46,028 bases of DNA, from the NCBI GenBank assembly GCA_028820505.1, contig JAPPIT010000174.1:1-46028 (forward strand), written 5' to 3'. The position numbers and the translations under genes are program-made. The stretch comes from Defluviicoccus sp. Lineage in GTDB: Bacteria; Pseudomonadota; Alphaproteobacteria; MPNO01. Position 1 is the stretch's first letter, and each line of letters begins with the position of its first letter. A model generated the notes under the pieces. It worked only from the letters and a program-made list of their open reading frames with translations. It was not told the origin of the DNA and did no database searches. This document shows, piece after piece, positions 1,021 to 21,210 of this stretch.

Positions 1021-1048
1021 TCATGCACAGCCATCCCGCCGCGCAGCG

Positions 1049-2176
1049 CTACCGGGCATCCCTGCCGCCCTGGAGTCCCGCCGCCGCCCGAATGCGCCGA
1101 TAATCCGACTGGCCCATGGATCCCTCACGGAACGCCCTTTCAGCCGCTCCAAGGAGATCCGTGCCGGCATCCGCGAGCCGGTCCGAAATCGTCCCCGGCC
1201 AGGCACGCTGCGGCCGCTCGAGAAGCGCGCTCTTGAGCTCCGAATCGAACACCAACCACTCGCGCAGCGCCGTTCGCCCGCCGCCCGGATCGGCGACGAG
1301 CACCTGCGTCACCACCAGGTGCAGCACGTCGACCAGCGCCGCGCCGCGCTCGTCCCGCTCCTCCGCCGGGAATTCCGCGAGCATCCGCCTGATAGTCGCC
1401 GCCACGCCCGTCGTATGCGCCGTGGAATAGACCGCGATCCCGTAATCCGCCGCCCGCACCACGGCTTCCACGGTTTCGCGGTCCCGCGCCTCGCCTACCA
1501 GCACCGCGGCCGGACGTCGCCTGAGCGAGGACCGCAAGCCTTGCGCAAACGTCGAGAAATGACGCGGGATTTCGGCCGAGGACATCAGCGCCGCGTTGCC
1601 GCCGATGCCGTCGAACACGTACTCGATCGGCGCCTCGAAGCTCTGGATGCGTCCCGACCCGTTCTCCAGCAGCCGCCTGGTCCCCGCCGCGAGAAGCGTG
1701 CTCTTGCCCGACCCCGGAATCCCCGTCACCAGGGTCAGCCCCGCGCAGAGCTCCCAGGCGCTGACGATTTCGGGCTCGATCCCGAGCTCGTCCAGCGTCG
1801 GCACCGCCTCCGGCATAACCCGCAGCGTGATGCTCACCGCGAACGCGTGATCGACCTCCGCCGGGGAAATGTTCACCCGGAAGCGCCGCCGCCGCAGTCG
1901 GTCCCGCTGTACCGTTTTCGAGCAGTCGATCGCTTCGCCCGAGCGGAGAATGCTTACCCCGGTCTCGTTGAAGAGCCCCTCGACCAGCATCTCCATCTCG
2001 GTCCGGCCGAGCACCGCGGACGTCGCGCGTCTCAGCTTCCCGTCCACCTCCACGAACGCCGGCGAACCCGTTTGCATCGCGACGTCCGACGCTCCCGACT
2101 CGGCCGCCCACACGAGGAAATCATCCAGCCTCTCCGCCGGAAAAGCGTGTTGCGCCGGCTCCCACAACCCGCTCAC
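1049..2176 (-). CDS. dotB: DotB/TraJ-family secretion ATPase
   Basis: 375 residues from a GTG at 2176 that overlaps the dotC stop (GTGA); GGAGGAC lies 6 bases upstream of it, which decides the start over the longer open frame reaching 2437. It is a PilT/VirB11-type hexameric ATPase: Walker A GIPGSGKST at 152-160, Asp box EAPIE at 181-185, Walker B region VLVGEARDRET at 225-235, and His box STAHTTG at 251-257. DotB energises the type IVB coupling/secretion complex at the inner membrane, and TraJ is the R64 counterpart. The dotD-dotC-dotB-icmT order is the diagnostic traH-I-J-K block. Confidence 0.93.
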   Translation of the reverse strand: MSGLWEPAQHAFPAERLDDFLVWAAESGASDVAMQTGSPAFVEVDGKLRRATSAVLGRTEMEMLVEGLFNETGVSILRSGEAIDCSKTVQRDRLRRRRFRVNISPAEVDHAFAVSITLRVMPEAVPTLDELGIEPEIVSAWELCAGLTLVTGIPGSGKSTLLAAGTRRLLENGSGRIQSFEAPIEYVFDGIGGNAALMSSAEIPRHFSTFAQGLRSSLRRRPAAVLVGEARDRETVEAVVRAADYGIAVYSTAHTTGVAATIRRMLAEFPAEERDERGAALVDVLHLVVTQVLVADPGGGRTALREWLVFDSELKSALLERPQRAWPGTISDRLADAGTDLLGAAERAFREGSMGQSDYRRIRAAAGLQGGRDAR

Positions 2177-2988
2177 GGCCCGTCCTCCAGCAGCAGGCGC
2201 CATCTCGACGTCTGCGGAACCAGCCTTGCCCGCTCGCCGAGCCTGGCGAACGATTCCTCTATGCGCATCACCTCGCCGCCGCCCGAGACGTCCGCATCGC
2301 CCACCCTGACCACGGGCGCCGTCGCCATGCGCGCAAGGTTCAGCCGGCGCCAGAGAACGATCCCCTCGAAATCCCTGCCAAGCCGGTCGAGATCGGCGGC
2401 GAAGATGTCGTCGGCCAGCATCACACCGCGCCGCCATCCCTCGGCGACCCAGACGCCCCAGCTCTTCCGCTCCTCGCGATCCCGCGGATACAGCACCGAA
2501 ACCGGCGCCTCGGCCTCCGCCCAGCGCCGCATCAGGTAATCCCGCCAGTCCGGAGGCGAGCTCACCAGCCGTTCCGACGCGAGGATTCTCACCACCCGCC
2601 GCGCCAGCGCCGCCTGCGACCCGTCACGGCCCAACCGGAACGCGCTCTTCGTCTCCGCCGCCACCGGCGGCATCACCGAGAAGCCGCCCTTCGTGAGCAG
2701 CAGGTCCCTGAACCGGAAAATCCGCGACAGCTGCGCCGCATGCCGCTCCAGCATGCGGTTGATCTCCCAGCCTCTCCGTGCGAGCCCGGCGCGCGCTCCG
2801 TATCCGATCGCAGCCGACCGCATCGCCGAGAGGCGCTTCTCCTTCGCGAACGACACGTCGAGCTGCCGCGAGGGCGCGGCATCGCGCACCTCCCGCAGGC
2901 CGGGAGGCGCTTTCTCCGCCAAAGCCGTGGTCGGGAACAGGAAAGCCGACGCAGCCGCCAGCCCGAGAACCAGCGCCTTCCGTCTCAC
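2173..2988 (-). CDS. dotC: DotC/TraI-family outer-membrane core protein
   Basis: 271 residues from a GTG at 2988 overlapping the dotD stop. The sequence has the DotC core pattern: 'RSAAIGYGARAGLARRGWEIN' followed by 'L.R..A.QLSRIFRFRDLLL...GFSVMPPV' and a C-terminal 'ADDIFAADLDRLGRDFEGIVLWRRL'. DotC with DotD delivers the DotH secretin-like core to the outer membrane. In Legionella DotC is a lipoprotein; here the signal peptide (about 1-24, ending TTALA) has no lipobox Cys, so lipidation appears lost. Confidence 0.85.
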   Translation of the reverse strand: MRRKALVLGLAAASAFLFPTTALAEKAPPGLREVRDAAPSRQLDVSFAKEKRLSAMRSAAIGYGARAGLARRGWEINRMLERHAAQLSRIFRFRDLLLTKGGFSVMPPVAAETKSAFRLGRDGSQAALARRVVRILASERLVSSPPDWRDYLMRRWAEAEAPVSVLYPRDREERKSWGVWVAEGWRRGVMLADDIFAADLDRLGRDFEGIVLWRRLNLARMATAPVVRVGDADVSGGGEVMRIEESFARLGERARLVPQTSRWRLLLEDGP

Positions 2989-3467: not shown

Positions 3468-4879
3468 CACCGTCCCGCCTCCCGCACCACGAGGTAACGG
3501 TTCGCGTGCGCGCTCACCAGCAGCACGCGCGACACCTGCGGATCGGAAAACAGCCCGTCGACCGCCTTCAGGAACGATCCTTCGAACGCCGCTGCGGCAC
3601 CGACCGAGAAGTCCCTCCCGGTCCGCCAGTCGACCTTCCACTCCGCCTTCGCCGCCCAGCTTTCGACCACGCCCCGAAGTGTCTTCTGCGACACGGGATC
3701 CACTTCCCACTTCTCGACGACCGGCGCCTCCGCGACCGCGGCAACGACGCTCTCCGCACCGGCCGGATCATCCGCCTTTGCCTCTGAACCCGACTCCTCC
3801 GGAACATCACTCTGGACATTGACCGCCACGGATCCCTCCCGAGGCGTTTCCCCGGGCAAGTCTCCCGCCTCTTGCCGCTCGCTGTCCGATTGGGCCGGCA
3901 GGGCACGGTCTCCCGCCGGCCGTTCTGCCGCCCCGAACACACGTCCAAGCCACGCCCAGACCCGCTCCACGGGACCGCCAGGAACCGGCGCCTCCGCCGT
4001 TGCGACCGCAGGAGCGCCCGGCCAAGCCGAATCCCAGTAGCGGTAGAAGACCAGGCGACCGTCCGCCCATTCCCACGCATATCCAGCGCGCGAAGCCACG
4101 CTATCCAGAACCGCCGACAGCTCCCCCTCATCGCCCGGCAACACCGGGTCCGGCTCCGGCAAACGCACCGTGCCGCCGGCCACGCGAGCCGGTCGCTCCT
4201 CGATCGCGGTCTCGATCCCCGCGGCGCGCCCGATCGCCGCCACCAGCTCCTCGAAGGGCAGGGGGCCCGTCCCCTCCAGGCGAATCCGCTTCCCCGTCAA
4301 TTCGTCCGGGAGCGCCGGTTTCGCCGGCAGCAATTCCGTCGCCACGATCGCCACCGGATAGTCGCCCGCCGGGGCCTTTGCTTCCGCCGACAGGGCGGCC
4401 CCGGCATTCACCCCCAGGAACACGACGGCGGCACCGGTCGCGAGCCCGGGTCCAGCCGGCAGGTAGCCCCGTGTGAGCGGCCGGCCGCGCCGCGTCTGGA
4501 GACAGGCCATGTGCAGCAGCGCCACCGAACATCCGAGCACCAGCGCCCAGAGAAACGCCCGCAACCCCAGGATCCCGCCGACTGCGCAGAGCAGCACGGC
4601 ATCCCCCGGATAGATCGGCCAGCGCCGGCCCGCCGCGTCGGCAAGCAGGATCAGGACAAGCGGCATTCCCGCTCCGAGTGCGGCACCGACCGCGTGCATC
4701 GCCCAGCCCGTGCCGAGAAGCGCCATCCCGCCTCCAAGCCCCAGCCAGATAATCCCCGCCGCCATCAGCAGAACGACCAGGTCGAGGCGGATCACCATCC
4801 TCCGCGCATCCACCACGGCAATTCCCGCAAGTGCCCCAAGCACGCCGACGCCGCTCAACGTTCCCGCCAGACCGTTCAC
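3467..4879 (-). CDS. Fusion of a type IV prepilin peptidase with a PilL/TcpQ periplasmic domain
   Basis: 470 residues from a GTG at 4879, with GGAGGA 5 bases upstream inside the preceding gene. The open frame reaches 5362, but that upstream part shadows the neighbour and is not protein-like. Residues 1-158 are a multi-pass membrane domain with the two Asp of the aspartyl prepilin-peptidase core: Asp24 in AVVDARR and Asp93 in YPGDAVLL. Residues about 173-285 resemble a secretin-type STN/N0 domain, 290-390 is an acidic linker, and 398-468 is a TcpQ/PilL C-terminal domain ('TLRGVVESWAAKAEWKVDW'). In R64 these functions are separate proteins, PilU and PilL. It should cleave the PilS and PilV-like leaders and dock to the PilN secretin. 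Confidence 0.78.
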   Translation of the reverse strand: MNGLAGTLSGVGVLGALAGIAVVDARRMVIRLDLVVLLMAAGIIWLGLGGGMALLGTGWAMHAVGAALGAGMPLVLILLADAAGRRWPIYPGDAVLLCAVGGILGLRAFLWALVLGCSVALLHMACLQTRRGRPLTRGYLPAGPGLATGAAVVFLGVNAGAALSAEAKAPAGDYPVAIVATELLPAKPALPDELTGKRIRLEGTGPLPFEELVAAIGRAAGIETAIEERPARVAGGTVRLPEPDPVLPGDEGELSAVLDSVASRAGYAWEWADGRLVFYRYWDSAWPGAPAVATAEAPVPGGPVERVWAWLGRVFGAAERPAGDRALPAQSDSERQEAGDLPGETPREGSVAVNVQSDVPEESGSEAKADDPAGAESVVAAVAEAPVVEKWEVDPVSQKTLRGVVESWAAKAEWKVDWRTGRDFSVGAAAAFEGSFLKAVDGLFSDPQVSRVLLVSAHANRYLVVREAGR

Positions 4880-5235
4880 GACATTCCTCCAACGGTCCGG
4901 CCGAATGTCGCCGGCAAGACGTCGCACCAGTGCCCGACCTCGCGGCACAGCGCCTCGTCCAACGACGCCGGCGCTTCCCCGCTCCCCCCTCGAAGCCGGT
5001 TCCATCTCAGCAACGCCTCCTGGGCGTCCTTCAGCTCCTTGAGCATGCGGATCTCGGACCGCAACGCCTCGATCGCATCGTGCGCCTGCCCCCTCGCCGC
5101 CGCCGCCGGCGTCTCGATCACCGCGCCGTCCTGACCGGCCGCATTCATGGGCGATGCCGCCATGCCGGCGACCACGAGCAACTTCCCAACCGCAGCCACG
5201 CACCGTTCCATCGGCATCGCTATTCGCTTCAGCAT
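4876..5235 (-). CDS. Small exported coiled-coil protein of the pilus operon
   Basis: 119 residues. The ATG at 5235 lies 7 bases inside the end of pilV. An N-terminal signal segment (about 13-36, ending MNAAGQ) is followed by an Ala/Glu-rich heptad-like helix (about 45-80: 'AHDAIEALRSEIRMLKELKDAQEALLRW') and a short C-terminal part with two Cys (C96 and C103). The position between pilV and the prepilin peptidase suggests a periplasmic accessory role. In R64 the lytic transglycosylase PilT lies between pilS and pilU, but this protein is too short and has no transglycosylase motif. I do not recognise the family. Confidence 0.6.
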   Translation of the reverse strand: MLKRIAMPMERCVAAVGKLLVVAGMAASPMNAAGQDGAVIETPAAAARGQAHDAIEALRSEIRMLKELKDAQEALLRWNRLRGGSGEAPASLDEALCREVGHWCDVLPATFGRTVGGMS

Positions 5236-6419
5236 CCGACGCAGGTCCCCACCACCAGGCTCGAAAAGCCCGCGTTGTCGGCTTCGACGCGATTCCTCGC
5301 CCGCACGCTTCCAGAGCTGAGAGCGCCCACCACGTCCACGGTTCCCGACACGTCGACCTCATCCGCGGTCAGCGACGCCGCACGGGCCGTCCCCGACGAA
5401 AGCTGCCCGGCGACGGTCGCGCTCCCCGTGCCCACCGAACCCGCGAATACCGGCCCGGAGACCGTCGCACTGCCCGCCGACAGGCTCCCCGACGTGTCGA
5501 ACGACGCCGCGCTTGCCTGTCCGGTCGCCACCAGCGTCCGGGCACGGACTTCGCCCGAGAAGATTCCCGAAGCCGCGTCGAGAGCACCGGCCACTCGCGC
5601 AGTGTCCGTGTTGAGCCCCCCAACCACCGTCGCGATTCCCTCGATCCGCCCCGAGCCGCCGATCAGCAGATCGGCCGTGACCCGCAGACCGCCGCCCACG
5701 TCCAGATCTCCCTCAAGCGTCATCGTCTGCGCCTCGAGATCGCCGACCCCGGTCACGTCATGCCCGTCCATGTCGAGATCGGTCTCCATCCGGTTCGCAC
5801 CGGCGAGCCCGGCCACCGCGCCGCGATAGAGATAGTCCCCGAACACCGACTGCCGATCGTGCCGCGTCAGCACCCCGATCGCCCGCAGCGCGGGCGCGCC
5901 GCCGTGATCCGACCGGAAATCCGCGACCGGCACCCTCAGAGCCGGCCCCCGCAGCTCCGGCGGGTTCACATCGGGCGGCACCACCCCGATCCGCGCATCG
6001 CCGCGAACCCCCAGCACCGCGCCGGAGGGAAACCATCCGTCGCCGGCAGCGACGTCGTGCGTCACCAGCACGTCGAGCACCCCGGCCGACGGCGAACGGG
6101 TGAGAATCCTCAGCCGCCGTCCCATCGCATCCCGACCGTTCGGCGCGAATCCGGGCGCCAGCACGCCGGCGCTCCGCACCGTCGCCAGCGTCGCCTCCTC
6201 CGGCGCTGCCGCGAGCCGCGCCTCGAAGGATCCCTCGACCCATGACCCGACCGCGTCCGACAGCGCGACCGCTTGCGCACCGGCCAGCTTGACGACGCGC
6301 TCGCGCGCCCTCTGCTCCAGCCACTCGAACCCGGCCGCCACGAACACGCCGAACACGACCAGCGCCAGCATCGCCCCGAACAGCGACATCCCCGCGCTGT
6401 AGCGCCTTGCCCTCAACAT
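5229..6419 (-). CDS. pilV: PilV-like type IVb minor pilin / tip protein
   Basis: 396 residues from the ATG at 6419; an in-frame ATG at 6428 directly abuts the G-run, so the second ATG has the better ribosome-site spacing. Basic leader RARRYSAG is followed by MSLFGAMLALVVFGVFVAA, a prepilin cleavage site and hydrophobic helix. Residues about 30-200 resemble the shufflon-type PilV N-terminal domain. From about 200 to the end there are repeated short beta-strand motifs rich in Gly/Ala/Ser/Thr/Val, like a beta-helical shaft. The protein ends in GTCVGC. In R64 PilV is the pilus-tip adhesin whose C-terminus is switched by the rci shufflon; no shufflon segments or recombinase are seen here. Confidence 0.72.
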   Translation of the reverse strand: MLRARRYSAGMSLFGAMLALVVFGVFVAAGFEWLEQRARERVVKLAGAQAVALSDAVGSWVEGSFEARLAAAPEEATLATVRSAGVLAPGFAPNGRDAMGRRLRILTRSPSAGVLDVLVTHDVAAGDGWFPSGAVLGVRGDARIGVVPPDVNPPELRGPALRVPVADFRSDHGGAPALRAIGVLTRHDRQSVFGDYLYRGAVAGLAGANRMETDLDMDGHDVTGVGDLEAQTMTLEGDLDVGGGLRVTADLLIGGSGRIEGIATVVGGLNTDTARVAGALDAASGIFSGEVRARTLVATGQASAASFDTSGSLSAGSATVSGPVFAGSVGTGSATVAGQLSSGTARAASLTADEVDVSGTVDVVGALSSGSVRARNRVEADNAGFSSLVVGTCVGC

Positions 6420-7657
6420 CCGTTGCATCCCCCCGGCGATACCGTGAGCGTCCTGGTTATCCGCGCGGAGGGGCCGAAGATGTCCCCGCTCGCGTCGATC
6501 CTCTGCGCCACGACCCCCGACGCATCGAGATTGCCCGCCCTGACCGTCCCCGCGTCCATCGACGACGTGTCGAGAACCCCGTTCACCCGCAGATCCTCCG
6601 CCACCATCCGCGTCGCGGACCGCAACTCCGTCACCCCGTCGAGCGCTCCCCCGATCACGAGCAGCGACGCATCAACCGAACCCAGCGTCGAGAAGGACCC
6701 CGCGCCGATCCTTCCCCCGACCGCGCGCACCGTGTTGCCGCGCAATTCCCCGGCAAACCGGCCGCTCCCCCCTGCAAAGTCGCCTGTAGCCGTCAGGTTG
6801 CCGGGATTGATGGCATCGCCCGTCACGTCCACGGCACCCGCCACCAGACACGGATCGGCGGGTGAACCGACACACGGGGCCCTGGATTCCTGTCCGGTCG
6901 ACCAATTGACGCCGACCGCATCCCCCGCCACCGTCGCCGACCCCTCGGACGAGACGTCCGCCAGGCTCTCGGCCCGAATGCCCTCTACTGCCGCCGCACC
7001 GTCTATGTCCCGACGCGTGCCGCCGCCGTCCTCCAGGACCAGCTCCGCTTCCATTCGCGTCGCCCACGGCCGGCCCGGCTGCGCCCGCCGGAACAGCGCC
7101 TCGTCCTCGTAAGACAGCGCCAGGTCCGCTGTCGCGAACAGCGCACCCGCCGGCACTGCCGCCCCACGCGCGGCTCCGACAGCAGCCTCGTGCACGGACA
7201 TGGCCCCGCCGGTCGAACCGCCGATCCCGACATCCACCAGCCCGGCACCGAAAGCACCCGCCCTGGCGGCAGGCCTCGCGTCCGCCGGCAGCACCAGGAC
7301 AGCCCACGCCATCGGCACACCCGGCGCCGGGCCCGATCCATCCGACATCACGCCCAAAGTGAGGTCCGCCGACACGGGAAGCCCGGCGGGCGCCCCCGGC
7401 AACGCCGCCGGCGAGACAGCGAACCCGTCGGGATCCGCGGTCAGCGCGGCGCGGTAGTCGGTTCGCATGGTCGCCCTGTGTGCCGCCTGCAGCCACATCG
7501 CGAAGACCCGCCCTGTCTCCGCCTGGAGCTCCCGCCGCTTCCGGTCCGCGTCGCTCTCGTGCCAGGCCGCGAGCAGCACCGCCGAAAGCGAAATCATGAA
7601 CAGCACCGACACCAGCGCCGCCGCGCCCCGAAGAGCCCTGCGCGGTACACCCATCAT
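6413..7657 (-). CDS. Second PilV-like minor pilin / tip protein
   Basis: 414 residues. Its ATG at 7657 overlaps the pilS stop (ATGATG). A basic N-terminus and hydrophobic helix (about 12-31) give a pilin-like or signal-anchor start (LRG then AAALVSVLF), without a clear consensus cleavage box. After a globular region (about 40-230) come repeated beta-strand-like motifs (about 245-405: 'GSGRFAGELRGNTVRAVGGRIGAG'), ending in PGGCNGC. Layout and ending mirror the pilV neighbour, so the two look like diverged duplicates. It is probably a minor pilin or tip/adhesin subunit. The first Met is the coupled one; a second ATG lies one codon in. Confidence 0.6.
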   Translation of the reverse strand: MMGVPRRALRGAAALVSVLFMISLSAVLLAAWHESDADRKRRELQAETGRVFAMWLQAAHRATMRTDYRAALTADPDGFAVSPAALPGAPAGLPVSADLTLGVMSDGSGPAPGVPMAWAVLVLPADARPAARAGAFGAGLVDVGIGGSTGGAMSVHEAAVGAARGAAVPAGALFATADLALSYEDEALFRRAQPGRPWATRMEAELVLEDGGGTRRDIDGAAAVEGIRAESLADVSSEGSATVAGDAVGVNWSTGQESRAPCVGSPADPCLVAGAVDVTGDAINPGNLTATGDFAGGSGRFAGELRGNTVRAVGGRIGAGSFSTLGSVDASLLVIGGALDGVTELRSATRMVAEDLRVNGVLDTSSMDAGTVRAGNLDASGVVAQRIDASGDIFGPSARITRTLTVSPGGCNGC

Positions 7658-8253
7658 CCGAACGTGAACCCCAGGTCGACGGTCTCATCCGCATCCGCAT
7701 CCACGTCGCAGCCCGTCGTCACCTCGTCCCGCGTCACCGGGGCGGCCTGCTCGCCACCGCCATCGCCGCCAAACTGGATGTCTACAATTCCCGTGCGCGC
7801 CCGTGTCCGACCCACGAACAAGTCGGCCAACGCCCCGCAACTCTCCGCGTCCAGATCCTCGAATGTGATCCTGTAGAGCGTCGCGCCGTCTCCTTCGGGA
7901 TTTCCCACCACCGTGACCGCGCCCCCGAATCCGGGCTGGATCGCTTCACCCACCAGCGCCTTGTCCGGCACCCCTCCGCGCGCGACCAGAGTGGGCACCA
8001 GATCCGTGTCGTCCGCCCCGTAGTTCGGATCTCCCGCGTAGATCTTCTGGACGTTGGCCCGCAGCGTATGAAGCAGCAGCGCCGCTTCGTTGCGCTGCCT
8101 GTTCTCCTCCGCGGAATTGAAGAAATCGATGGCTCCCACCACCGCCACGCCCGCGACCAGCATTCCAAGCATCACCTGGAAAATCGTGATCCCGCGCCTG
8201 GACCCCGTTGCCAGGCGCCGGCCAAGACCGGGCTTCGCCAACAGGCCGTTCAT
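7654..8253 (-). CDS. pilS: PilS-like type IVb major pilin precursor
   Basis: 199 residues. A 21-residue basic leader ends in SRRG; cleavage before Ile22 would expose ITIFQVMLGMLVAGVAVVGAI, the N-terminal pilin helix. The mature region 'NVQKIYAGDPNYGADDTDLVPTLVARGGVP' follows the PilS/type IVb pattern, and Cys139/Cys182 can form the C-terminal D-region disulfide. Position +5 is Gln rather than the usual Glu. It sits between pilR and the PilV-like genes, as expected from R64 apart from the missing pilT. It forms the thin mating pilus, needed for liquid mating in R64-type systems. Confidence 0.85.
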   Translation of the reverse strand: MNGLLAKPGLGRRLATGSRRGITIFQVMLGMLVAGVAVVGAIDFFNSAEENRQRNEAALLLHTLRANVQKIYAGDPNYGADDTDLVPTLVARGGVPDKALVGEAIQPGFGGAVTVVGNPEGDGATLYRITFEDLDAESCGALADLFVGRTRARTGIVDIQFGGDGGGEQAAPVTRDEVTTGCDVDADADETVDLGFTFG

Positions 8254-8268
8254 CCCCTGATCCTCCGT

Positions 8269-9345
8269 CTAGACAAAGCCGGTATCGGCAGCCTTCATCA
8301 TCCCGAACATCCCCAGCACCGCGATCGCCACCAGCAGCGCCGCCAGCGCCATCAAGACGCCGCTGAGCAGCGCCGTTCTTTGCCGCAAGATCCGCTTCGC
8401 CCGTGTCGACCACCGCGCCACGAAGCCCGCGAGCTTCGCTTCCCATCCCTGGTTCGTTTCCAACGCGGCGACCACGCCGACCAGCGAGGGATCGGGGAAC
8501 CCTTGCCCGCACTCCACCATCGCGCGCCCCATTCCGCGCCCCGCCCTCATCCGCGTCTCGATCGCCTCGATCCGGGAACGCGTGTAGCGCGATGACGCGG
8601 CCTTCAACCGCGCGAACGTCCTGTCGTTCAGGTCCACGCCCGCGCCCAGGAACTCGATGACGACGAACAAGAACGCCGACCCCGCGATTGTCCGATAGAG
8701 CGAAAAGGGCGCCACCCGGTCCGCCAGGACCCGGCCTCTTCCGGTCCAGTTCAGAGTCAGCAGAGCCAGGATGACGGCCCCGACCAGGCTCCAAACCACG
8801 ATCCAGACATCGTTCTCGTAGACCCAGAGCGACGCATCGCCGAAGAGCTGCGCCGGCAGGTCCCAGCGCTCGCGCGGCGCCACGCCAAGCATCGCAGGCA
8901 CGAACAACAGGCCCGAGAGCCACAGCGACGTCAGGATTCCGACCACCAGCACCAACGGCATTCCGAGCGCGCTCCACACAGCCGCCGACTGCTCCGCACG
9001 CGCCTCGGAGATCCGTGCGGCCGCCGCGAACAGCCCCGTGGCGTCCACGCGCCCTTCAGCCTGCAGAAGCATCGCCTCGCTCGCCGGCACCCAGCGCGCG
9101 ATCTCCTCCTGAAATCGGCTCTCCCTCAGCGCATCGCTCCATTTCTGAAGCACCCACGCCCGGCCGCCCTGACCCTGATCGCGACACGCCCCGATCGTCA
9201 CCCGCAGCGCCGTCCCCATGTCGAGTCCGGCCTCCATCAGGTCCGTCATCATGTTCCAGACGTCCACCCGGGCCGCCGTGCCCAGCACCGCGAGAGCCGC
9301 CGTACGCCGCGCCAGCTTCCCTACAAACCCCAGCAGCCTCCTCAT
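8269..9345 (-). CDS. pilR: PilR, GspF/PilC-type inner-membrane pilus assembly platform protein
   Basis: 358 residues from the ATG at 9345, which overlaps the pilQ stop as ATGA; the open frame to 9603 is not protein-like. Two repeats of the T2SS-F domain are visible: residues about 30-120 ending in a hydrophobic stretch, and about 235-320, with membrane helices near 125-150, 180-200 and the C-terminus (ALLSGVLMALAALLVAIAVLGMFG). It anchors the PilQ ATPase and organises pilin insertion. Immediately downstream of pilQ, as in R64. Confidence 0.85.
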   Translation of the reverse strand: MRRLLGFVGKLARRTAALAVLGTAARVDVWNMMTDLMEAGLDMGTALRVTIGACRDQGQGGRAWVLQKWSDALRESRFQEEIARWVPASEAMLLQAEGRVDATGLFAAAARISEARAEQSAAVWSALGMPLVLVVGILTSLWLSGLLFVPAMLGVAPRERWDLPAQLFGDASLWVYENDVWIVVWSLVGAVILALLTLNWTGRGRVLADRVAPFSLYRTIAGSAFLFVVIEFLGAGVDLNDRTFARLKAASSRYTRSRIEAIETRMRAGRGMGRAMVECGQGFPDPSLVGVVAALETNQGWEAKLAGFVARWSTRAKRILRQRTALLSGVLMALAALLVAIAVLGMFGMMKAADTGFV

Positions 9346-10964
9346 GCCGCAACGCTCCGAGGCATCGCGGGGAACTCCGCCCCGATAAGCTCCGGCGACG
9401 CGCCCTTCTCCAGCGCGTCCCTCGGATCGCACCGGCCCTCGATTACCGCCTGCCAGATCCGCGCACCGATCGGCACCCCGCCGAGCTCGCCGATCCAGTA
9501 ATCCCGCGCGCCGGCCGCATCCTCGGCCTTGACGAAACCCAGATACGCGGGATCCGGGCGAATGATCTCGCACACCGCGGTCCGGCCTCCGTAGCCGCGC
9601 CACACCGCCGCCGCGATCTCGTTATCCTCCTCCCTCCGGCATCTCCCGCAGCCCTCCGGATTGCGGTAGCGAACCCTCTCGAAGCCCCGCAGGCGCTCCG
9701 CCAACCATGCCGGCATCCCCTCCGGCACTGCCTCCATGCGGCACTCCTCGCACAGCAGCGAGAGCAGCGTCTGCTTCATCAACAGCTTGATCAGATCCGG
9801 GCGGCAGATCTCCGAGGGCCGCACGCCCATGTCGAGCAGGCGGAACAGGATCCCGTTGGCGTCCGCCACGTGAATCGTCGTCCACACCTGATGACCGGTC
9901 GCGATGAACTGCAGCACCTCGCGCGCCGCGTGCCCGTCGCGTATCTCGCTCACCATCCCCACCGCCGGATGCACCCTCACGAAATGCATCAGGGCCCGCG
10001 TGAAATTCTCGCCGCGCTCCTCGCCCGCGCCTGTCGTCGGTACCGCGATCTGAATCGCCCCCGGCAGCTCGTACTCGACCGGGTCTTCAACCGTCACCAG
10101 GTTGAGCTCGCCCCCGTGCTCCTGCTGCTGCAGCGTCAGATTGGCCGCCAGCGTCGTCGACTTTCCATCGCCGGTCGATCCGCCGAGAATGATGCCGCCC
10201 GACATCGACGATCTGAGCTCGGCGAACATCGCCTCGTCCTCGGCCGAGAAGCCAAGCGAGCGCAGCGTCGTCCCGGGCGCCAGCTGATCGCGGTAGAAGA
10301 CCCTGGCGACCATGTGATCGCCCTCCGGTTCATGCGGCCCCCTCTGACAGCGCAGCCCCGATACACCCTGCGGCAGCACCACGCCGTCGCCATGGCGAAC
10401 CGAAAAACCCTGAAATGCCTGCCGCTGGTATGACGTCTGACCGGTTCCTTCCTCCTTGTTGTGAAACAGGAACCCCGCCAGCTCCCGGCCCTGCGCCTCC
10501 GTCAACCGCTCTCCCAGCGGACGTTTCCTGTCATTCGCGATCACCGAAACACGGCACGCCCCGCCCTCGACCTCGAGCACCAGGTCCGAGGCACGCGCCG
10601 CCGCCGCGGCGGCTACCAGCCGTCTCAGCCGCAACGCGAGCTGCGAATCCCCCTCGCCATCGACCCCGCCTCGCACCGCTTCCCAGAGACCGGCAACCTC
10701 CTCCAGCGAGCCCTTTTCCTGCACCAGCGGATCCGGGATGGCTCGCTCGCGCCGCAGCCGCTGCAGCGACGTCCTGAGCTGCGGATCCAGCTCGTAACCC
10801 TCGGCGATCACGCAGCGCCCATCCGAGAACACCGCACACACGCGGCGGAAGTGTTCGTCCATGCCATCGCTGTCGACCAGCGTCGGGACAAGCAGCGGCG
10901 CCTCCGGCTCACGCGCGCCGGCAGCCCCGCCGTCCCGCTTCCTGCCGAACCCCGGAAGCCTCAT
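9342..10964 (-). CDS. pilQ: PilQ, GspE/PilB-type pilus assembly ATPase
   Basis: 540 residues; ATG at 10964 overlaps the preceding stop. Walker A GGSTGDGKST at 261-270, Asp box TVEDPVEYEL at about 291-300, Walker-B region GMVSEIRDG at about 336-344, His box TGHQVWTTIHVADANG at 356-371, and a zinc-type tetra-Cys arrangement CEEC (405-408) and CGRC (439-442), all typical of pilus-extension ATPases. The N-terminal 230 residues are a shorter variant of the regulatory domain. It powers pilus extension with PilR. Confidence 0.92.
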   Translation of the reverse strand: MRLPGFGRKRDGGAAGAREPEAPLLVPTLVDSDGMDEHFRRVCAVFSDGRCVIAEGYELDPQLRTSLQRLRRERAIPDPLVQEKGSLEEVAGLWEAVRGGVDGEGDSQLALRLRRLVAAAAAARASDLVLEVEGGACRVSVIANDRKRPLGERLTEAQGRELAGFLFHNKEEGTGQTSYQRQAFQGFSVRHGDGVVLPQGVSGLRCQRGPHEPEGDHMVARVFYRDQLAPGTTLRSLGFSAEDEAMFAELRSSMSGGIILGGSTGDGKSTTLAANLTLQQQEHGGELNLVTVEDPVEYELPGAIQIAVPTTGAGEERGENFTRALMHFVRVHPAVGMVSEIRDGHAAREVLQFIATGHQVWTTIHVADANGILFRLLDMGVRPSEICRPDLIKLLMKQTLLSLLCEECRMEAVPEGMPAWLAERLRGFERVRYRNPEGCGRCRREEDNEIAAAVWRGYGGRTAVCEIIRPDPAYLGFVKAEDAAGARDYWIGELGGVPIGARIWQAVIEGRCDPRDALEKGASPELIGAEFPAMPRSVAA

Positions 10965-12925: not shown

Positions 12926-14057
12926 CGTTCCACCCCGTCTCGTCCGCGAATTTCCGCCAGGGGTAGCGGTATTCCCGTCCTCCCACCCACAACGCGACGG
13001 TCCCCTCCGTAAGCCACCATCCGCCCTGCACGCCCCCGCCTATCAGTTTTCCGCCTTCCAACAGCCTCACCGTCTGAACCCCGCCACCGTGCAGTTCGAC
13101 GGAAAACGTCGCGCCCCTTGAGGCGAGCTCATCCATCATCCTGAATGCCCGATACCGTTGCCCGGTCGAGCGCAGCGGAAAGGGATAGCCGACGTAATAG
13201 GACGTCACGGACCCGGACGGCGCCCACCTCGCAACGATCACGGTTCCGTCGCGGACAAGCTCAAGCGTCCCGACCCCCGCAACCTCTCCGTCGTCGCCGA
13301 GCTTCCACAATTCGCCGTCCAATTCCCGCAGGACAACGACCCGTCTCTCTCCGTTTACGTCCTCGACGATCATTCCCTGCATTTTCGCGACGGCTTGTCG
13401 AAGCTCGTCGAGCGTAAGCGTCGGTTTGCCGTTCGTGTCTCCCAGCCCAACGGCCCCGGGAAACGCGTTCCGCCATCCCGGATGGCGAACAACGGCCCGT
13501 CCGTTCTTCCGCGCGGAGCTCCATGACAATGACGTCATGACCGCCCCTACTTCCACGCTGGAAGGCAGCTTTAATCCCTCACACACACTGAGCAACGCAC
13601 GAGGCCAGCTCTGCTCGACCCAACCGTCGGCTATTACCGCCCATCTTTTTTTCTTGCGATTAAACCGCTCACCATGCAGACGCCCGCTGCGGCCGTCATA
13701 AATCAACACCATTCCGTAGCTGCTAACCCGTCCTTTCACGGGCCGTACCAGCGCGAGCTTCGTCCCCCCGATACCGATCCCCACCTCCCACCACCAGTTC
13801 TCACCGGTAGCGAAAAATTTCTTGTCCTTTCGTCTCGTCCAACATCCCTGAACGCTTCCGTCGGCCGCGAAATGCAGAGCGCCGACTTTTCCCTGCCGCT
13901 CGAATAACCAGATCCGACCTGACAACAGCGATCGAAAAAACTCCGGCCCGTGCGACGAGAAATTCATCGGCCTCGGACGGACCTCATCCTGCGCGTTAAC
14001 GGTGGAGCAGAGAGTTACGCTCAATACTCCGCTCAACAACAACCTCAGCAACCTCAT
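12912..14057 (-). CDS. Exported protein paralogous to the N-terminus of the PilP-nuclease fusion
   Basis: 381 residues from ATG 14057, placed directly before a signal peptide (LLRLLLSGVLSVTLCSTVNAQ); a GTG at 14075 is possible. The C-terminal half (about 205-381) matches residues 60-215 of the following protein (WKLGDDGEV...TGQRYRAFRMMDELA...GGWWLTEGTVALWV), and the N-terminal half appears to be a further diverged copy (FAADGSVQGCW...NWWWEVG). It overlaps the next gene by 14 bases. I do not recognise the domain; W/G-rich beta strands suggest an exported beta-sandwich. A structural role in the pilus machine is inferred from position only. Confidence 0.6.
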   Translation of the reverse strand: MRLLRLLLSGVLSVTLCSTVNAQDEVRPRPMNFSSHGPEFFRSLLSGRIWLFERQGKVGALHFAADGSVQGCWTRRKDKKFFATGENWWWEVGIGIGGTKLALVRPVKGRVSSYGMVLIYDGRSGRLHGERFNRKKKRWAVIADGWVEQSWPRALLSVCEGLKLPSSVEVGAVMTSLSWSSARKNGRAVVRHPGWRNAFPGAVGLGDTNGKPTLTLDELRQAVAKMQGMIVEDVNGERRVVVLRELDGELWKLGDDGEVAGVGTLELVRDGTVIVARWAPSGSVTSYYVGYPFPLRSTGQRYRAFRMMDELASRGATFSVELHGGGVQTVRLLEGGKLIGGGVQGGWWLTEGTVALWVGGREYRYPWRKFADETGWNDGQG

Positions 14058-14101
14058 GCCGGTTACCCCCACCACCTTTTGGCCCGGTCTAAACTTGGTC
14101 C

Positions 14102-15454
14102 TCAGCAGCCACCGTCGCCGCCGTCGCCGCCGCCACCATCGCCTCCCATGGAGCCGAGACCGTCATCGCTGGGATCGGCTGTTTCACTACCAAGCCCATC
14201 GCCACCCACCGCAGCATCCTCTCCGTCTCCCAGACCGCCTTCCGCTTCGCTATCGCCTTCTTCACCGCCAAAATCACCACCATCGCCACCACCGTCATGC
14301 GGATCATCCACGACGATCAGCACGCAAGCCGATGTGTCCGAGATCCAGTTACTGACTGACACCCCCCGCTGAACCGTAGGGGCGCTGTCCCATTCGAACT
14401 GGGCGTAACGATCCCTGTGATTGCGGCACCTCTCCGCGGTGCCCGTGTATCCGGACGGACAACTCCTCGCCTCGCACTCCGGTCGTTCCACGAACCAGAT
14501 CCGCGGTGTCGGCAACGACTCCGCGGTTCCCGACACCGGCGTCACCGGAGTCGACGGTCCCGTCGTGCAGGTCGAGAACAGCATCGACCAGGTGCCCGAG
14601 GTCCCGCCTTGCGTTACACGCTTCTGGCGTGTCCAGATCTCGTAGCCCTGCTCGATCCGGCCGTTGACCAGGTACGTGCATGCCCGGTTCTGCGTTTCCT
14701 GCACCTCGTAGTCCGAAGCGCAGAGATCGACCGCGATGCTCCAGGGACCGAATGTCTCGCTCACCACCCGATCCCGGCTGTCGACCTGCTCCGTCACGAG
14801 CCGCCGCTCGACCCTCTCGGGCTGTACCGGATCCAGCCCCTCCGGCCGATGCATCCCGACCGGACACGTCGCGGGCTGCGTCTCCCACCGCGTCCTTGCG
14901 CGCGTCACGGTCCACGGATCGAGCACGCGGCCCGCCAGCGCCGCCCGTCCGGACGGCACCAGAGCGCTCATGCAGCTTGGCAGCGCGATCGTCGGCCGAC
15001 CCTCGCCGCCATGCGCAACCCCGCTCTCCAGCCAGTGCAGCCCGCGCCTCTCCCCGCCATACATTCGGGGCGCCATCTGCACGCTCCGATGATCCTCTCC
15101 CAGACCCATCACCCGCTGGGAACCGAGATACACAATCAACGTGCCTGGTAACTCCGGCGGGTCCGACGCGTTCTTGCAGTACCGCGCCCGCACCCCTCTA
15201 TCGGTCCAGCTCTGGACCCACCCCGTCGAGGCCGGCGGCACGTCGGTCCACAACGCGTTCTGCCCGTTCGGTCCGAGCACCGCGGCCGACGACCCCCTCA
15301 GGATGAACTGCTCCAGACGGTGATACGCCGTCTTCAGCGCGTGAGCATGCGCCCGCGCGTTTACCGCGTGCGCATCGTCCAGACCCGTCTGACCCTTCGC
15401 TTGCGGCGCCGCAATCGCCAGCACCGCAACAATCGTTATCGCTAGCCGTGTCAT
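14102..15454 (-). CDS. Novel exported Cys-containing protein with a Gly/Asp-rich C-terminal tail
   Basis: 450 residues from the ATG at 15454, overlapping the pilO stop as ATGA; the open frame upstream to 15991 is the antisense-frame shadow of pilO. Signal peptide about 1-21 (IAAPQAKGQ). The body (about 22-385) contains at least nine Cys, compatible with disulfides, and an SCPSGYTGTAERC-like segment near 350. From about residue 386 the tail is almost only Gly, Asp, Glu, Ser and Ala (for example GGDGGGGDGGDGGC at the very end), with no Lys or Arg, and ends in Cys. No family recognised. Its place next to pilO suggests an extracytoplasmic pilus component. Confidence 0.65.
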   Translation of the reverse strand: MTRLAITIVAVLAIAAPQAKGQTGLDDAHAVNARAHAHALKTAYHRLEQFILRGSSAAVLGPNGQNALWTDVPPASTGWVQSWTDRGVRARYCKNASDPPELPGTLIVYLGSQRVMGLGEDHRSVQMAPRMYGGERRGLHWLESGVAHGGEGRPTIALPSCMSALVPSGRAALAGRVLDPWTVTRARTRWETQPATCPVGMHRPEGLDPVQPERVERRLVTEQVDSRDRVVSETFGPWSIAVDLCASDYEVQETQNRACTYLVNGRIEQGYEIWTRQKRVTQGGTSGTWSMLFSTCTTGPSTPVTPVSGTAESLPTPRIWFVERPECEARSCPSGYTGTAERCRNHRDRYAQFEWDSAPTVQRGVSVSNWISDTSACVLIVVDDPHDGGGDGGDFGGEEGDSEAEGGLGDGEDAAVGGDGLGSETADPSDDGLGSMGGDGGGGDGGDGGC

Positions 15455-16683
15455 TCGATGAACCTCCTCACAGCGGCAAATGCCGATTCCCTGATCTTCA
15501 CCGGCTTCTCGCGCCGGCCCTCCAGCACCCACCCATCGCCCGCTCTCGCGAGCCGGGTGAGCTCGAAACCGTTCAACCCTTCGAACAGCCCTCTGATTTC
15601 CGAAAGCGGCTCCTCCATCACGATCCGGATCGTGCCGCCCTTGTCCGAATGCTCGATCTTCGACGCCCGCAAGCCGAACCGCCGATCGACCAACCCGCGC
15701 ATTGCGAGCCGTGACGGCATGGAGCCCGCCGCCTCCACCGCAACCGGAGGCAGCTCCACAACCATCCACGCCCGCGCACCGTCCACCTGCGCCTCGAATC
15801 CCCCTCCGCCCCGAGTGCGTTTCCACGCCGAGAGGTGCCTCTCGACCACGCTTCTGTGGAGCGACTCTTCCTCGCCACCGTTCATGCGCCACTTGACGAT
15901 CATCGCCGGCCGGTCCTTCAACGCTGGCCTGATCGCGATCAACGCCCTCTCGGCGAACTTCGCGGTGCATTCGAGATTGGCGACATTCCACCCGGGGATC
16001 CCTGGCGTGTAACGCCGCATCGCTTCACGGCAGCCCTGGATAAACGCACCGGAATCGATCACCGCGGCGATCCGCGGTTCCTTCCCCTTCTCCGGAAGCG
16101 CAATCGGGTCCGGCGGCGGAAATACCCACCTGATGATGTCCGACCGCATCACCCAAATGGCGACCACCGCCGCCGCCAGCGACAGCCCCGCCGCTGCACC
16201 CACGGCCGTTCGCTTCGTCACCCCGGCCAAGGGGACGGCCTTGAGTCCCGCGACACGCTCGAGCCCCTTGACATCGATGCTCTTGGCGCCTTCCAGCACG
16301 CCGGCCGAGGCGTAGAAGGCCCAGCCCGCCTTATCGAGACCGTCGAGAGCGCGGCGGCCGTCCTCGAGCTTTTCGAAGACCCGATCCCCGTCGGACAGGA
16401 TCACCCCGTCATTGACCTGGACCAGCGCGCACCCGCCGAAATCGCCGATCAGCAGCACCATCCAGCGGTCCTCGGGAATCGCTTCGTGCAGCGCCGCCGC
16501 GAGCACCGGCATCCCTGCCGCATACCTTTCGGACCCCCGTGCGTAACCCGTCTGGTCGCCGTGATGCGCGTACCACTCCGACTTCCCGCGCCGCGCCTCG
16601 TACGCCGTCTGTGCGGCATTGGCGCGCGGCAGCCAATCCAGGCCCGCCGCCCAGGCAATGCCGTCGATTTCGATAACGCTCAC
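15451..16683 (-). CDS. pilO: PilO-like type IVb pilus assembly protein
   Basis: 410 residues; ATG at 16683 overlaps the pilN stop. A cytoplasmic N-terminal domain of about 170 residues carries PilO-type motifs (AWAAGLDWLPR near 10-20, VLLIGDFGGCALVQVNDGVILSDGD at about 75-100). A single membrane segment lies at about 175-200 (AVGAAAGLSLAAAVVAIWVM), and a periplasmic region continues to the C-terminus. In R64-type systems PilO follows the secretin PilN and bridges cytoplasm and periplasm. Assignment rests on layout, motifs and gene order. Confidence 0.78.
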   Translation of the reverse strand: MSVIEIDGIAWAAGLDWLPRANAAQTAYEARRGKSEWYAHHGDQTGYARGSERYAAGMPVLAAALHEAIPEDRWMVLLIGDFGGCALVQVNDGVILSDGDRVFEKLEDGRRALDGLDKAGWAFYASAGVLEGAKSIDVKGLERVAGLKAVPLAGVTKRTAVGAAAGLSLAAAVVAIWVMRSDIIRWVFPPPDPIALPEKGKEPRIAAVIDSGAFIQGCREAMRRYTPGIPGWNVANLECTAKFAERALIAIRPALKDRPAMIVKWRMNGGEEESLHRSVVERHLSAWKRTRGGGGFEAQVDGARAWMVVELPPVAVEAAGSMPSRLAMRGLVDRRFGLRASKIEHSDKGGTIRIVMEEPLSEIRGLFEGLNGFELTRLARAGDGWVLEGRREKPVKIRESAFAAVRRFIE

Positions 16684-18272
16684 AGCTCGGTCTCGCTCGT
16701 TTCCGACACGCCGAGCGGCTCGCCCACGTCGGCCGTCACCAGAAGCACCTGCTCCTGCCGAAACCCGCTCGCCCGCCTGTGACCGTCCGGGAGCGGCACC
16801 TTCTCATCGAAAGTCCCGCCCAGATCGGAAGTGCCCACGCGATCCGTGAACCCCGCCACGATCAGCGTCTCGCCCCGCCGCAAACGCTGCGTCGCCTGAA
16901 CGCCGCGATCCGCATAGACCGGGAGCTGGATCTGCGCCTGGCTGGTGCCGAACACGGCGAACGTCGGCCTGTCCCTGAGCGAGGCCACGAGCCGCACCAG
17001 GACCTCGTCGGGCGCGGTGATCCTGGCCGTGTACGACAATGCGAACCCGGAGCTGACCTCGCCCGGCTTCAGCGTCGTCTCGCTGCCCGTCTCGGTCGTC
17101 TTGGTGCTGATTTCCTTGAGATAGGCCGTCTTCAGGAGCTCGTAGAACTGCGCCGGCTTGCCGTTCAAACTGGGCACGTCGGCCGAAAGCACCCGCGACG
17201 TCGTGCCAACGCTCTGCAGCGCGCGCAGCGTCGCCGAGAATGTGTCCGTATCGGCTGCCGCCCCCTCGGGCGGACGCACCACCGCGATGCTCCCCGCCCC
17301 GATGTCTATCTGAAGACGCTCACCGAAAATGCGGTCTATCAGCGCCGCGATCCCGACCTCGTAATCCGCTTCCCGCTGCAACCGCACCACGTAGACATGC
17401 GCCGAGATCGTAAGCGGTCGCAGAACCACATGGCTTAGATGCCGGAGGTATCCCCTTACTTTGCGGATCACGTCCGGCGTCCCCGCAACCGTGACCGACG
17501 CACTCCCGGACGAGACCGCCAGCTCCGCATCCGCACCGACCAACTGTTCCAGCTGACCCCGGATCTCGGGCCACGGATTGAACTGGGCCCGCGTTGAGAG
17601 CGCCTGCCGCGCCGATCCGGCCGCTCCTTCGCCACTTGCCCGATCGCGCGTCGCCGTCTGCGCCGAATAACTCTGACTTCCAGCCAGCGCGTTGATGCCG
17701 AACGTCACCGTCTTGCGGCGAACCACCTCCACGCGGCCTTCCAGGTAACGCCACTCGTAGCCACCGGCCGCGCTCCACGCATCCAGCAGGCGACCCAGCG
17801 GTCCCGTCCAGATACCCGCCGCCGGCGTCCAACCGTCTCTCAGCCCGGAAACGAAGCCGACACCACCAGTCTCGCCGCTTGCCCGGCCCAGCAGCCGCAC
17901 CTCGAGCTTCGCCGCCGCCTCGATTCGCGACGCCAGAACCTCATCGGTTTCGATATCGGAAAGGGGGAGCGTTACCGCATCCGCTCCCTCGAATTCAGGC
18001 GGCAGACCTTCCCGGTCTTCCCGCTGAACAGGCTCTATGCCGAGCCACGGACGCTTCGATACGCGAACCGAAGACCATCTCGGCTCGCCCTTGCCAAGCA
18101 GCTTGGCGAGCTCCTGCGATACCTCCTCAGCCTGGTCGCGGGAACTCTTCTCCAGCTCGGAGACCGGGCCGCACGACGCCGCCAACATGCTGGCGACTGC
18201 AAAAATCGCCGCGCAAACCCTTCGAATCTTGCAGCTTGACACCGAAACGCGCACGGATAATGCTCCGAACAC
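16680..18272 (-). CDS. pilN: PilN-like outer-membrane secretin lipoprotein
   Basis: 530 residues. The N-terminus carries a lipoprotein-type signal ending LAASC. Residues about 85-190 are an STN/N0-like domain (GPLGRLLDAWSAAGGYEWRYLEGRVEVVRR). The C-terminal half is the secretin beta-barrel domain (about 300-525: LNGKPAQFYELLKTAYLKE, later VQATQRLRRGETLIVAGF). It forms the outer-membrane pore for the thin pilus and is the first gene of the operon. ATG 18272 is used; a GTG at 18254 has a GGAG at good spacing and may be the true start. Only about 30 bp separate the start from the tRNA-derived core, and I see no convincing sigma-70 promoter in that gap. Confidence 0.87.
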   Translation of the reverse strand: MFGALSVRVSVSSCKIRRVCAAIFAVASMLAASCGPVSELEKSSRDQAEEVSQELAKLLGKGEPRWSSVRVSKRPWLGIEPVQREDREGLPPEFEGADAVTLPLSDIETDEVLASRIEAAAKLEVRLLGRASGETGGVGFVSGLRDGWTPAAGIWTGPLGRLLDAWSAAGGYEWRYLEGRVEVVRRKTVTFGINALAGSQSYSAQTATRDRASGEGAAGSARQALSTRAQFNPWPEIRGQLEQLVGADAELAVSSGSASVTVAGTPDVIRKVRGYLRHLSHVVLRPLTISAHVYVVRLQREADYEVGIAALIDRIFGERLQIDIGAGSIAVVRPPEGAAADTDTFSATLRALQSVGTTSRVLSADVPSLNGKPAQFYELLKTAYLKEISTKTTETGSETTLKPGEVSSGFALSYTARITAPDEVLVRLVASLRDRPTFAVFGTSQAQIQLPVYADRGVQATQRLRRGETLIVAGFTDRVGTSDLGGTFDEKVPLPDGHRRASGFRQEQVLLVTADVGEPLGVSETSETEL

Positions 18273-18301
18273 GAACGGCTCTGCTTAGGGCGACTGCGGT
18301 T

Positions 18302-18321
18302 AAATCCCGCCCCCGCAACCA
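18302..18321 (+). other. Putative att site: 3' end of an initiator tRNA (fMet), without the rest of the gene
   Basis: AAATCCCGCCCCCGCAACCA fits, base for base, the 3' end of a bacterial initiator tRNA: T-loop AAAT, T-stem CCCGC, acceptor CCCCGCA (its last A facing the unpaired C1 typical of tRNA-fMet), discriminator A, then CCA. The bases before it (ACTGCGGTT) only partly continue the T-arm and no 5' tRNA half lies upstream, so this is a fragment. Such displaced tRNA ends mark where an integrase inserted an element into the tRNA 3' end. The conjugation operon on the left ends here, so I read it as one border of the ICE. Confidence 0.7.
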
Positions 18322-18324
18322 CAA

Positions 18325-18362
18325 AAAAGCCCTTGAAAACATTGATGTTTTCGGGGGCTTTT
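18325..18362. terminator. Strong bidirectional rho-independent terminator after the tRNA fragment
   Basis: 18325-18340 (AAAAGCCCTTGAAAAC) pairs with 18347-18362 (GTTTTCGGGGGCTTTT), 16 bp with two G-T pairs, around a 6-base loop ATTGAT. On the plus strand it ends in TTTT and fits the native tRNA terminator. On the minus strand it ends in GGGC followed by six T, so it would also stop transcripts heading into the pil operon. Confidence 0.85.
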
Positions 18363-18381
18363 CATTTGCAGGATGGTCGAT

Positions 18382-18409
18382 TTGGCCAGTTGGCAAACTA
18401 TTGGCAAAC
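18382..18409. repeat. Phased TTGGC direct repeats beside the att border
   Basis: TTGGC occurs at 18382, 18390 and 18401, and the longer TTGGCAAAC is repeated exactly at 18390-18398 and 18401-18409 (11 bp apart, about one helical turn). The position 60-90 bp from the tRNA core is where integrase arm-type or regulator sites are often found; the function is unproven. Confidence 0.4.
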
Positions 18410-18769
18410 ATTTTGTTTCGAACGGGAGGCGACGCATGCGCCCCCGTTTCACCGAATCTCTGGGCCGGGTAGGCGAGGTCGTTGCCGAGCCTCGTCCCCC
18501 ACAGAGGTTTCAGCTCATGGCATCCTCCTCTCCAGGGCTTGGCTTGGCGCTATAACCGTTCGGACGTTGGGGTGATGATTCCGTCAGCCCCTGACTTTGC
18601 CCGCCGCGCCCGTTGGCGCAGCGGAGCGTCTTGGCAGAGAGCCTTGGCGATTCGCTGGAGAGCGTCCCCAGTGGACGTCGGACGGCACGGCGCGTTGCAA
18701 TGCGCTGGGGTGCCTCATGGAGTGGGTGGCGTGGCCGATGCCCATCGGCGTGGATCACTGGAATGCGAG
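18410..18769. other. Intergenic region between the att border and the first unknown gene
   Basis: No convincing gene. A long open frame covers it on the plus strand (from 18482), but its translation is rich in Arg, Ser and Trp without structure and merely runs into the real start at 18770. The promoter for the 18770-20190 pair is presumably here; I see no clear -35/-10 pair. Confidence 0.5.
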
Positions 18770-20531: not shown

Positions 20532-20554
20532 GAGCGTATCCGTTTTAGACCGAA
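20532..20554 (+). repeat. IS630 left terminal inverted repeat
   Basis: Begins GAGCGTATCCGTTTTAGACC right after the TA at 20530-20531 and matches the complement of 21559-21581 at 19 of 23 positions. Confidence 0.85.
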
Positions 20555-21210
20555 GCGTATCCTGCGTTTTGGATGTAGTTGAGGCATTCGTTGGGTTGGA
20601 TTGTGTCGATGAGTTGTCCGAGGTATTGCGAGGCGTCTTCGGGGGTGCGTTTCTGGGCGTCGCGCATCCAGTGCTTGATCTTTGCGAAGGCTTGTTCGAC
20701 GGGGTTGAGGTCGGGCGAGTAGGGCGGCAGGAACCGGAGCTTTGCGCCGGCGCCGCGGATCGCCTGCCTGACCGGTCTTCCCTTGTGGCTTCCGAGGTTG
20801 TCGAGGACGACGATGTCGCCCGGCCTCAGGGTGGGGACGAGGAACTGTTCGACCCAGGCCTGGAAGCACTGGGCATTGATCGGGCCGTCGAAGACGCAGG
20901 GGGCTGTGAGCCCGTCCGAGCGCAGCGCGGCGAGGAAGGTCATGGTGCGCCAGCTTCCGTGGGGTGCGAACCCCTTGAGGCGCCTGCTCTTGTCGGCCCA
21001 GCCGCGCAGCGGGGCCATGTCGGTCTTGATCCCGTTCGGCGGCTTACGCGGCCTTCGGCCACGGTCCGCCTCCAGCCGGCGCTTGAGGGTCTGCCACCGC
21101 GCCCGCTTGCGGGCCACCGCGTCGCGCGTCTGCTCAAGGGCGAACAGGATTTTTTTGGCGCAGCCCCTTGCGTCTGAGAAACCGCCAGATCGTGTCGCGG
21201 CATACCGCAA
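20545..21210 (-). CDS. IS630 transposase, DDE catalytic part (second frame)
   Basis: Carries the IS630 DDE core: first Asp in [10 protein letters not shown], second in [11 protein letters not shown], Glu in [17 protein letters not shown]. It overlaps the helix-turn-helix frame. The open frame reaches 21210, but meaningful sequence begins at the A7 run (21150-21156, as T on the plus strand). It has no good start of its own, so it is most likely expressed by frameshifting from the upstream frame. Confidence 0.85.

Follow-up and report, generated by a model that had tools for sequence, protein, structure and literature searches.

How can a conjugation operon be transcribed if its first gene starts close to the border of the element that carries it? 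This question is raised by the window analysed here, a whole contig (C21, 46,028 bp) of an alphaproteobacterial MAG (G000; 228 contigs, 3.6% contamination). Its pil-tra cluster spans positions 161-18254 on the minus strand and runs off the contig start, while the part of the window beyond 18321 does not belong to the element. An earlier note on this DNA had suggested that the operon depends on a promoter across the element junction, supplied by the other end upon excision. Based on sequence comparisons, we assign a probability of about 0.72 to this reading: pilN would be promoterless in the integrated state and connected to a promoter only in the circle.

Results and discussion

The first gene and the transfer system

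The features of this region are listed in Table 1. The pilN gene is real; its product matches the TIGR02520 and Secretin profiles with 132.7 and 23.6 bits, respectively, below the cut-offs of 287.65 and 27.5. Two starts had been offered for this gene, 18272 and 18254. The latter aligns with the CTG/TTG starts and Shine-Dalgarno sequences of four other copies (C48, L105, L109, L110) and is the likely start, whereas 18272 gives the longest open reading frame and was rejected on the same alignment. The proposed closeness of pilN to the attachment core is borne out, at a distance of 54 bp from the 13-bp core instead of 30 bp. C48 and G001 show about the same distance, and the spacing between Shine-Dalgarno sequence and core is 41-42 nt in three copies of subfamily A. 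A nearly identical pilN start to that of the Defluviicoccus copy was also seen on a contig binned as Acidobacteria (L104), which is probably mis-binned.

Table 1. Coordinates of the features at the element border and in the pil-tra operon (window positions)
Feature	Position	Strand	Remarks
TraJ/DotB-like ATPase, MPF_I gene, same operon as pilN	1049..2437	-	TIGR02524 264.6 bits, TIGR02525 228.9 bits, both below cut-off
PilV-like adhesin, shufflon-type constant region	5229..6428	-	PF04917 24.4 bits, below cut-off
PilS-like type IVB pilin	7654..8253	-	PF08805 and PF05307, ~35 bits, above cut-offs
PilQ-like ATPase (T2SSE), pil operon	9342..10964	-	PF00437 147.8 bits
pilN, type IVB pilus secretin-like lipoprotein, first pil-tra gene	16680..18254	-	likely start GTG 18254
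Outward promoter-like site TTGACA-N17-AATGCT, overlapping pilN start	18236..18264	+	9/12 match; would face repC in circle
Shine-Dalgarno sequence CGGAG of pilN	18263..18267	-	read from aligned sequences
Attachment core GCCCCCGCAACCA, tRNA-fMet 3' end	18309..18321	+	repeated at other border, G000:C212 613-625
Predicted intrinsic terminator, bidirectional, host tRNA-fMet locus	18325..18363	both	outside element; T-run toward pilN
Host-side flank common to empty site G001:C95	18364..18442	+	87% over 136 bp including core and terminator

All reading frames from pilN to traJ are open within the window. Between them, a long ORF of the pil operon (10961-12925) ends in a C-terminal Staphylococcal-nuclease-like domain (PF00565); in G312, the part matching this domain seems to be a separate gene. 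The element was recovered in pieces over several contigs, with gaps between them. Homologues of TraM/DotI, TraN/DotH, TraO/DotG, and TraQ are encoded on C44 and partly also on C170, while TraY/DotA, TraW, and a coupling protein were found in a distant copy (G312:C117). Several of these transfer-gene matches lie below the curated cut-offs, and whereas C170 was placed after C48 by synteny, C44 was given to the window's element by elimination alone. DotH/TraN genes occur twice in G000 and are absent from G002, the genome with the empty ubiG/lysC site. The MPF_I class calls for at least four MPF_I-specific genes, and TraO is not among the listed markers (PMC3158045); our tally comprises TraM/DotI, TraN/DotH, and TraQ on C44, tied to the element by elimination, plus TraO, with TraY and TraW in G312. 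Together with TraJ/DotB in the window, the combined pil and Dot/Tra homologues support a transfer system of probable MPF_I type, as the earlier note had claimed. As regards the criteria for an ICE, T4SS genes were found, a coupling protein is encoded in G312, and defined borders as well as an empty site are present. A relaxase was not found on the recovered, incomplete element.

Directly upstream of traM/dotI, a DsbG-like thiol-disulfide protein is encoded (L169 79-783). C44 has inverted copies of a 55-bp sequence at its two ends (L169 ends). The same sequence also ends C212 (L154 end) and is perhaps a repeat or the end of an insertion sequence. We rejected these common ends as a link between C44 and C212, since they are inverted repeats found at either end of C44 and are no proof of a connection.

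Both borders of one insertion

The earlier note had described the border as an att site in a tRNA-fMet gene, with an fMet-like core at 18302-18321. Only the 13-bp stretch 18309-18321 is common to both borders; a longer 20-mer at the core occurs in a single copy in G000. The border was defined by an alignment in which the site G001:C95, the left border on C212, and the right border in the window coincide on CCCCCGCAACCA. On G001:C95, the 13-mer, the hairpin, and the right flank (up to 18442) are arranged as in the window, and a different mobile element, of the DUF2285 type (judged from the translation), ends ahead of the core. The start of G000:C212 matches this very end (76% over 626 bp), followed by the core and then by different DNA. 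Therefore, the empty site is represented by G001:C95. A single insertion, placed in tandem after another element, has one of its borders on C212 and the other in the window. We regard the identification of the border and of both ends of the insertion as near certain from this alignment. Some loci of the fragmented MAG have near-identical counterparts on contigs binned elsewhere (L104), as would be the case if the border were an assembly or binning artefact; but the independent left border and the empty site both match the border, and the 41-42 nt spacing from Shine-Dalgarno sequence to core recurs at another site, so that this explanation is largely refuted and carries a negligible probability.

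The role of the tRNA has to be revised. Neither ARAGORN nor Rfam detected a tRNA gene within the window, which holds a 3' fragment only. As read from C212 and L036, this fragment is a stump left by another ICE and would predate the arrival of the present element. Since the fMet end was already a stump and sister copies reside at other sites, the tRNA is incidental. In G004, two tRNA-fMet 3' fragments, each starting at the anticodon stem, lie beside ORFs that read like tyrosine integrases (L037, L042), which marks the tRNA-fMet locus as an insertion hot spot. Paired 8-mers that differ by genome were observed to the right of the fMet terminator (TGGCAAAC..TGGCAAAC, TGGGAATC..TGGGAATC, and GTCAACAC..GTCAACAC; window 18391-18409, L036, L037, L040, L041, L042); they resemble arm sites of other elements using this locus. 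Further along the right flank, a DDE_3 transposase gene is located at 20545-21210.

The hairpin with a T-tail pointing toward the operon was confirmed, with strong predicted folds on both strands (minus strand, 18319-18368: -18.5 kcal/mol, z -4.1; plus strand, 18322-18372: -22.9 kcal/mol, z -5.3). The arrangement is not due to chance: congeners carry GGTTCAAATCCTGCCCCCGCAACCA with the same kind of hairpin, and on G001:C133 such a hairpin follows an intact tRNA-fMet gene that is preceded by 5S rRNA. Judged from these comparisons, the putative terminator is a property of the insertion site and not a part of the element. None was seen at the insertion sites of the other copies, and therefore insulation is possible for this copy only.

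The repC end and the recombinase

The opposite end of the element was found on C212 (L154). An intact tRNA-fMet gene, recommended by the earlier note as a guide together with the integrase, is absent from G000's own assembly; the end was located through the empty site of a second copy and repC. Inward from the core, C212 carries a structured antisense-RNA-like gene with a terminator, repC (PF03428, PF11800), parA, parB, a gene for a large serine recombinase, and a Toprim/DUF7146 gene. The assignment of parA was made by position and translation, and the match of parB is weak. C212 encodes an intact RepC and an intact recombinase. Within the element, at L133 (13767-14726), a further, partial repC-like gene adjoins the serine recombinase gene and suggests a past replicon duplication.

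The recombinase contains the Resolvase, Recombinase, and zinc-ribbon domains (PF00239, PF07508, PF13408). A large serine recombinase is found in the same place on C212, on C135, in G004, and in G389, the homologue on G389:C205 being 34.6% identical over 514 aa. This protein is a candidate for the recombinase of the element, in the role of the integrase expected by the earlier note. A tyrosine integrase was rejected as the driver: none of the 60 Phage_integrase matches in G000, many of which form close pairs or triples per contig reminiscent of recombinase-in-trio arrangements, falls into the window, C212, or the corresponding arm (C135 1-34 kb).

Sister insertions at other sites

G000 contains a second pilN on C48 (66% identity), which is inserted between ubiG and lysC. 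This intergenic region is uninterrupted in G002, and the repC side lies next to ubiG in G000 (C135), G001 (C105), and G004 (C159). More distant copies are found in G312 and G389 (pilN 47% and 42%, respectively), within an EamA gene and an amidohydrolase gene. When the flanks are joined at one common dinucleotide (AA and AG, respectively), the reading frames of both disrupted genes are restored, which makes excision geometrically exact. Both dinucleotides are flanked by symmetric 8-bp arms, 10 bp away, and this predicted crossover pattern is what a serine integrase leaves. The symmetry is claimed for G312 and G389 only, as a palindromic attP in the window's own subfamily did not stand out from shuffled sequences and was discarded. 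Regarding circular relatives, two plasmid records with RepC matches lack the back-to-back pilN-repC layout, and the IMG/VR scans gave no relative of pilN or of the recombinase.

In G312 and G389, 50 bp separate the pilN start from the central dinucleotide. Over the five paired insertions, which represent four kinds of site, its distance to the crossover is always 50-54 bp. This retention of the architecture argues against a dead remnant, for which the geometry would be irrelevant in the window's copy; so do the open frames from pilN to traJ and the intact RepC and recombinase on C212. Contig breaks fall within the element, its middle part and a relaxase were not recovered, and repeats border C212 and C44, all of which would fit a remnant, but on balance we consider it improbable.

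Promoter-like sites at the two ends

Consensus scans of 18000-18500 detected no inward σ70-like promoter leading into pilN. The earlier note had named a promoter within 18254-18322 as evidence against its proposal; at a looser cut-off, 18141-18330 likewise contained no inward site. The same holds for the pilN ends of L105, G312, and G389, and C48 has a weak 8/12 match only. At the opposite end, C212 carries an outward promoter-like sequence (698-669; TTGACA-N18-TAGGCT) 43 bp from the core, which would be directed at pilN only in the circle. An outward σ70-like site is present at all repC ends (6/6), between the antisense-RNA terminator and the border. It reads TTGACA-N18-TASGCT in C212, C135, G001, and G004, and TTGACT-N17-CACAAT in G312 and G389; the local sequence thus differs between the two subfamilies and the outward site is retained in both. 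Comparable matches occur in 2.6% of AT-matched 130-nt windows, and the six ends are not independent, since four are close homologues. All promoter calls are consensus matches with 3-4/6 in the -10 hexamers, and promoters in Alphaproteobacteria deviate from the E. coli consensus. The repC ends showed no promoter-like site directed inward.

When both ends are joined, pilN and repC come to lie on either side of the attachment site, back to back. In the integrated state, the outward promoter at the repC end would read flanking DNA and leave pilN without a promoter. Excision, probably by the serine recombinase, would generate the circle, in which this promoter would read through a leader of ~104 nt (~37 nt, the 13-bp core, and 54 bp) up to the pilN start. 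The promoter across the joint would thereby switch on the pil-tra operon and couple transfer-gene transcription to excision. In this copy, the tRNA terminator of the site would also stop read-through from the right flank, the part of the original proposal that does not extend to the sister copies. We favor this circle-dependent expression because five paired insertions, covering four kinds of site, have the same architecture, and because the outward site is present at 6/6 repC ends and none points inward at the pilN end of the window.

Alternatively, pilN could be transcribed while integrated, either from host DNA next to the element or from a promoter near the border that the scans did not recognise, one using another sigma factor or an activator; the outward site would then produce a second antisense RNA of the replicon or express a host gene such as ubiG. 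Consensus scans miss non-σ70 promoters, and at ubiG/lysC the element parts ubiG from the lysC-side DNA, so that a host promoter could face pilN and the outward site faces ubiG. But the copies occupy different sites (tRNA stump with terminator, intergenic, inside genes) and share no common host promoter, and all repC ends retain the outward site irrespective of the DNA that flanks the element. We therefore consider this explanation unlikely, though it is the strongest competitor of circle-dependent expression. As an observation in its own right, the insertion may have replaced the promoter of ubiG, toward which the outward promoter-like site of the element is directed (L133 19802-19890; L135; L136).

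Circle-dependent expression could extend to replication. The outward site overlapping the pilN start (Table 1) has counterparts in C48 and L105 and weaker ones in L109/L110, where a TTGACA lies at the pilN start in a different reading frame. Its -10 hexamer is poor, and poorer still in G312 and G389. With the pilN promoter on the repC end and a repC promoter on the pilN end, reading across the core, a single recombination could turn both conjugation and plasmid-style replication off in the integrated state and on in the circle. We put forward this reciprocal switch tentatively, at somewhat less than even odds. If true, it would explain how a plasmid replicon is kept in a chromosome without firing.

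Comparison with known systems

In the alphaproteobacterial repABC-type plasmids, RepC replicons share with the element the RP-C and RP-C_C domains, the ParA/ParB neighbours, and a structured antisense-RNA-like gene upstream of repC. In contrast to these plasmids, the gene order is repC-parA-parB, and repC starts at the border and in the circle would stand back to back with pilN; the closest plasmid RepC is ~30% identical. The recombinase has the domains of CcrB/XisF-like large serine recombinases, and the insertions in G312 and G389, which are exact at a single dinucleotide between symmetric arms, are likewise in agreement with these enzymes, but the protein scores far below both family cut-offs. 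With IncI/R64-type (MPF_I) and Dot/Icm systems, the element has in common the type IVB pilus genes pilN, pilS, and pilV, TraJ/DotB, and homologues of TraM/DotI, TraN/DotH, TraO/DotG, TraQ, and TraY/DotA. It differs from IncI/R64 in being chromosomally integrated and in residing in Alphaproteobacteria; in a 2011 survey, chromosomal MPF_I systems were essentially only Dot/Icm (PMC3158045). A limited literature search returned no description of RepC, a serine recombinase, and an MPF_I system (IncI/Dot-Icm-like) combined in Alphaproteobacteria.

The closest functional parallel is Tn916, in which Porf7 is joined to the transfer genes only upon excision and the terminator T1 insulates the operon (PMC11658703). 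In Tn916, and as predicted here, the integrated transfer genes lack a promoter, the main promoter lies at the other end and is reached across the circle joint, and a terminator is found at the end of the operon (PMC11658703). But Tn916 is a Gram-positive ICE that owns its terminator T1 and the antiterminator canT, whereas the present element has a site-borne terminator, a RepC replicon, an MPF_I system, and a serine-type recombinase candidate. It would thus work like Tn916 but stand outside the Tn916 family, with genes of other families and a terminator that is host DNA. If this is true, an unrelated lineage within the Alphaproteobacteria also ties the expression of its transfer genes to excision, as Tn916 is known to do.
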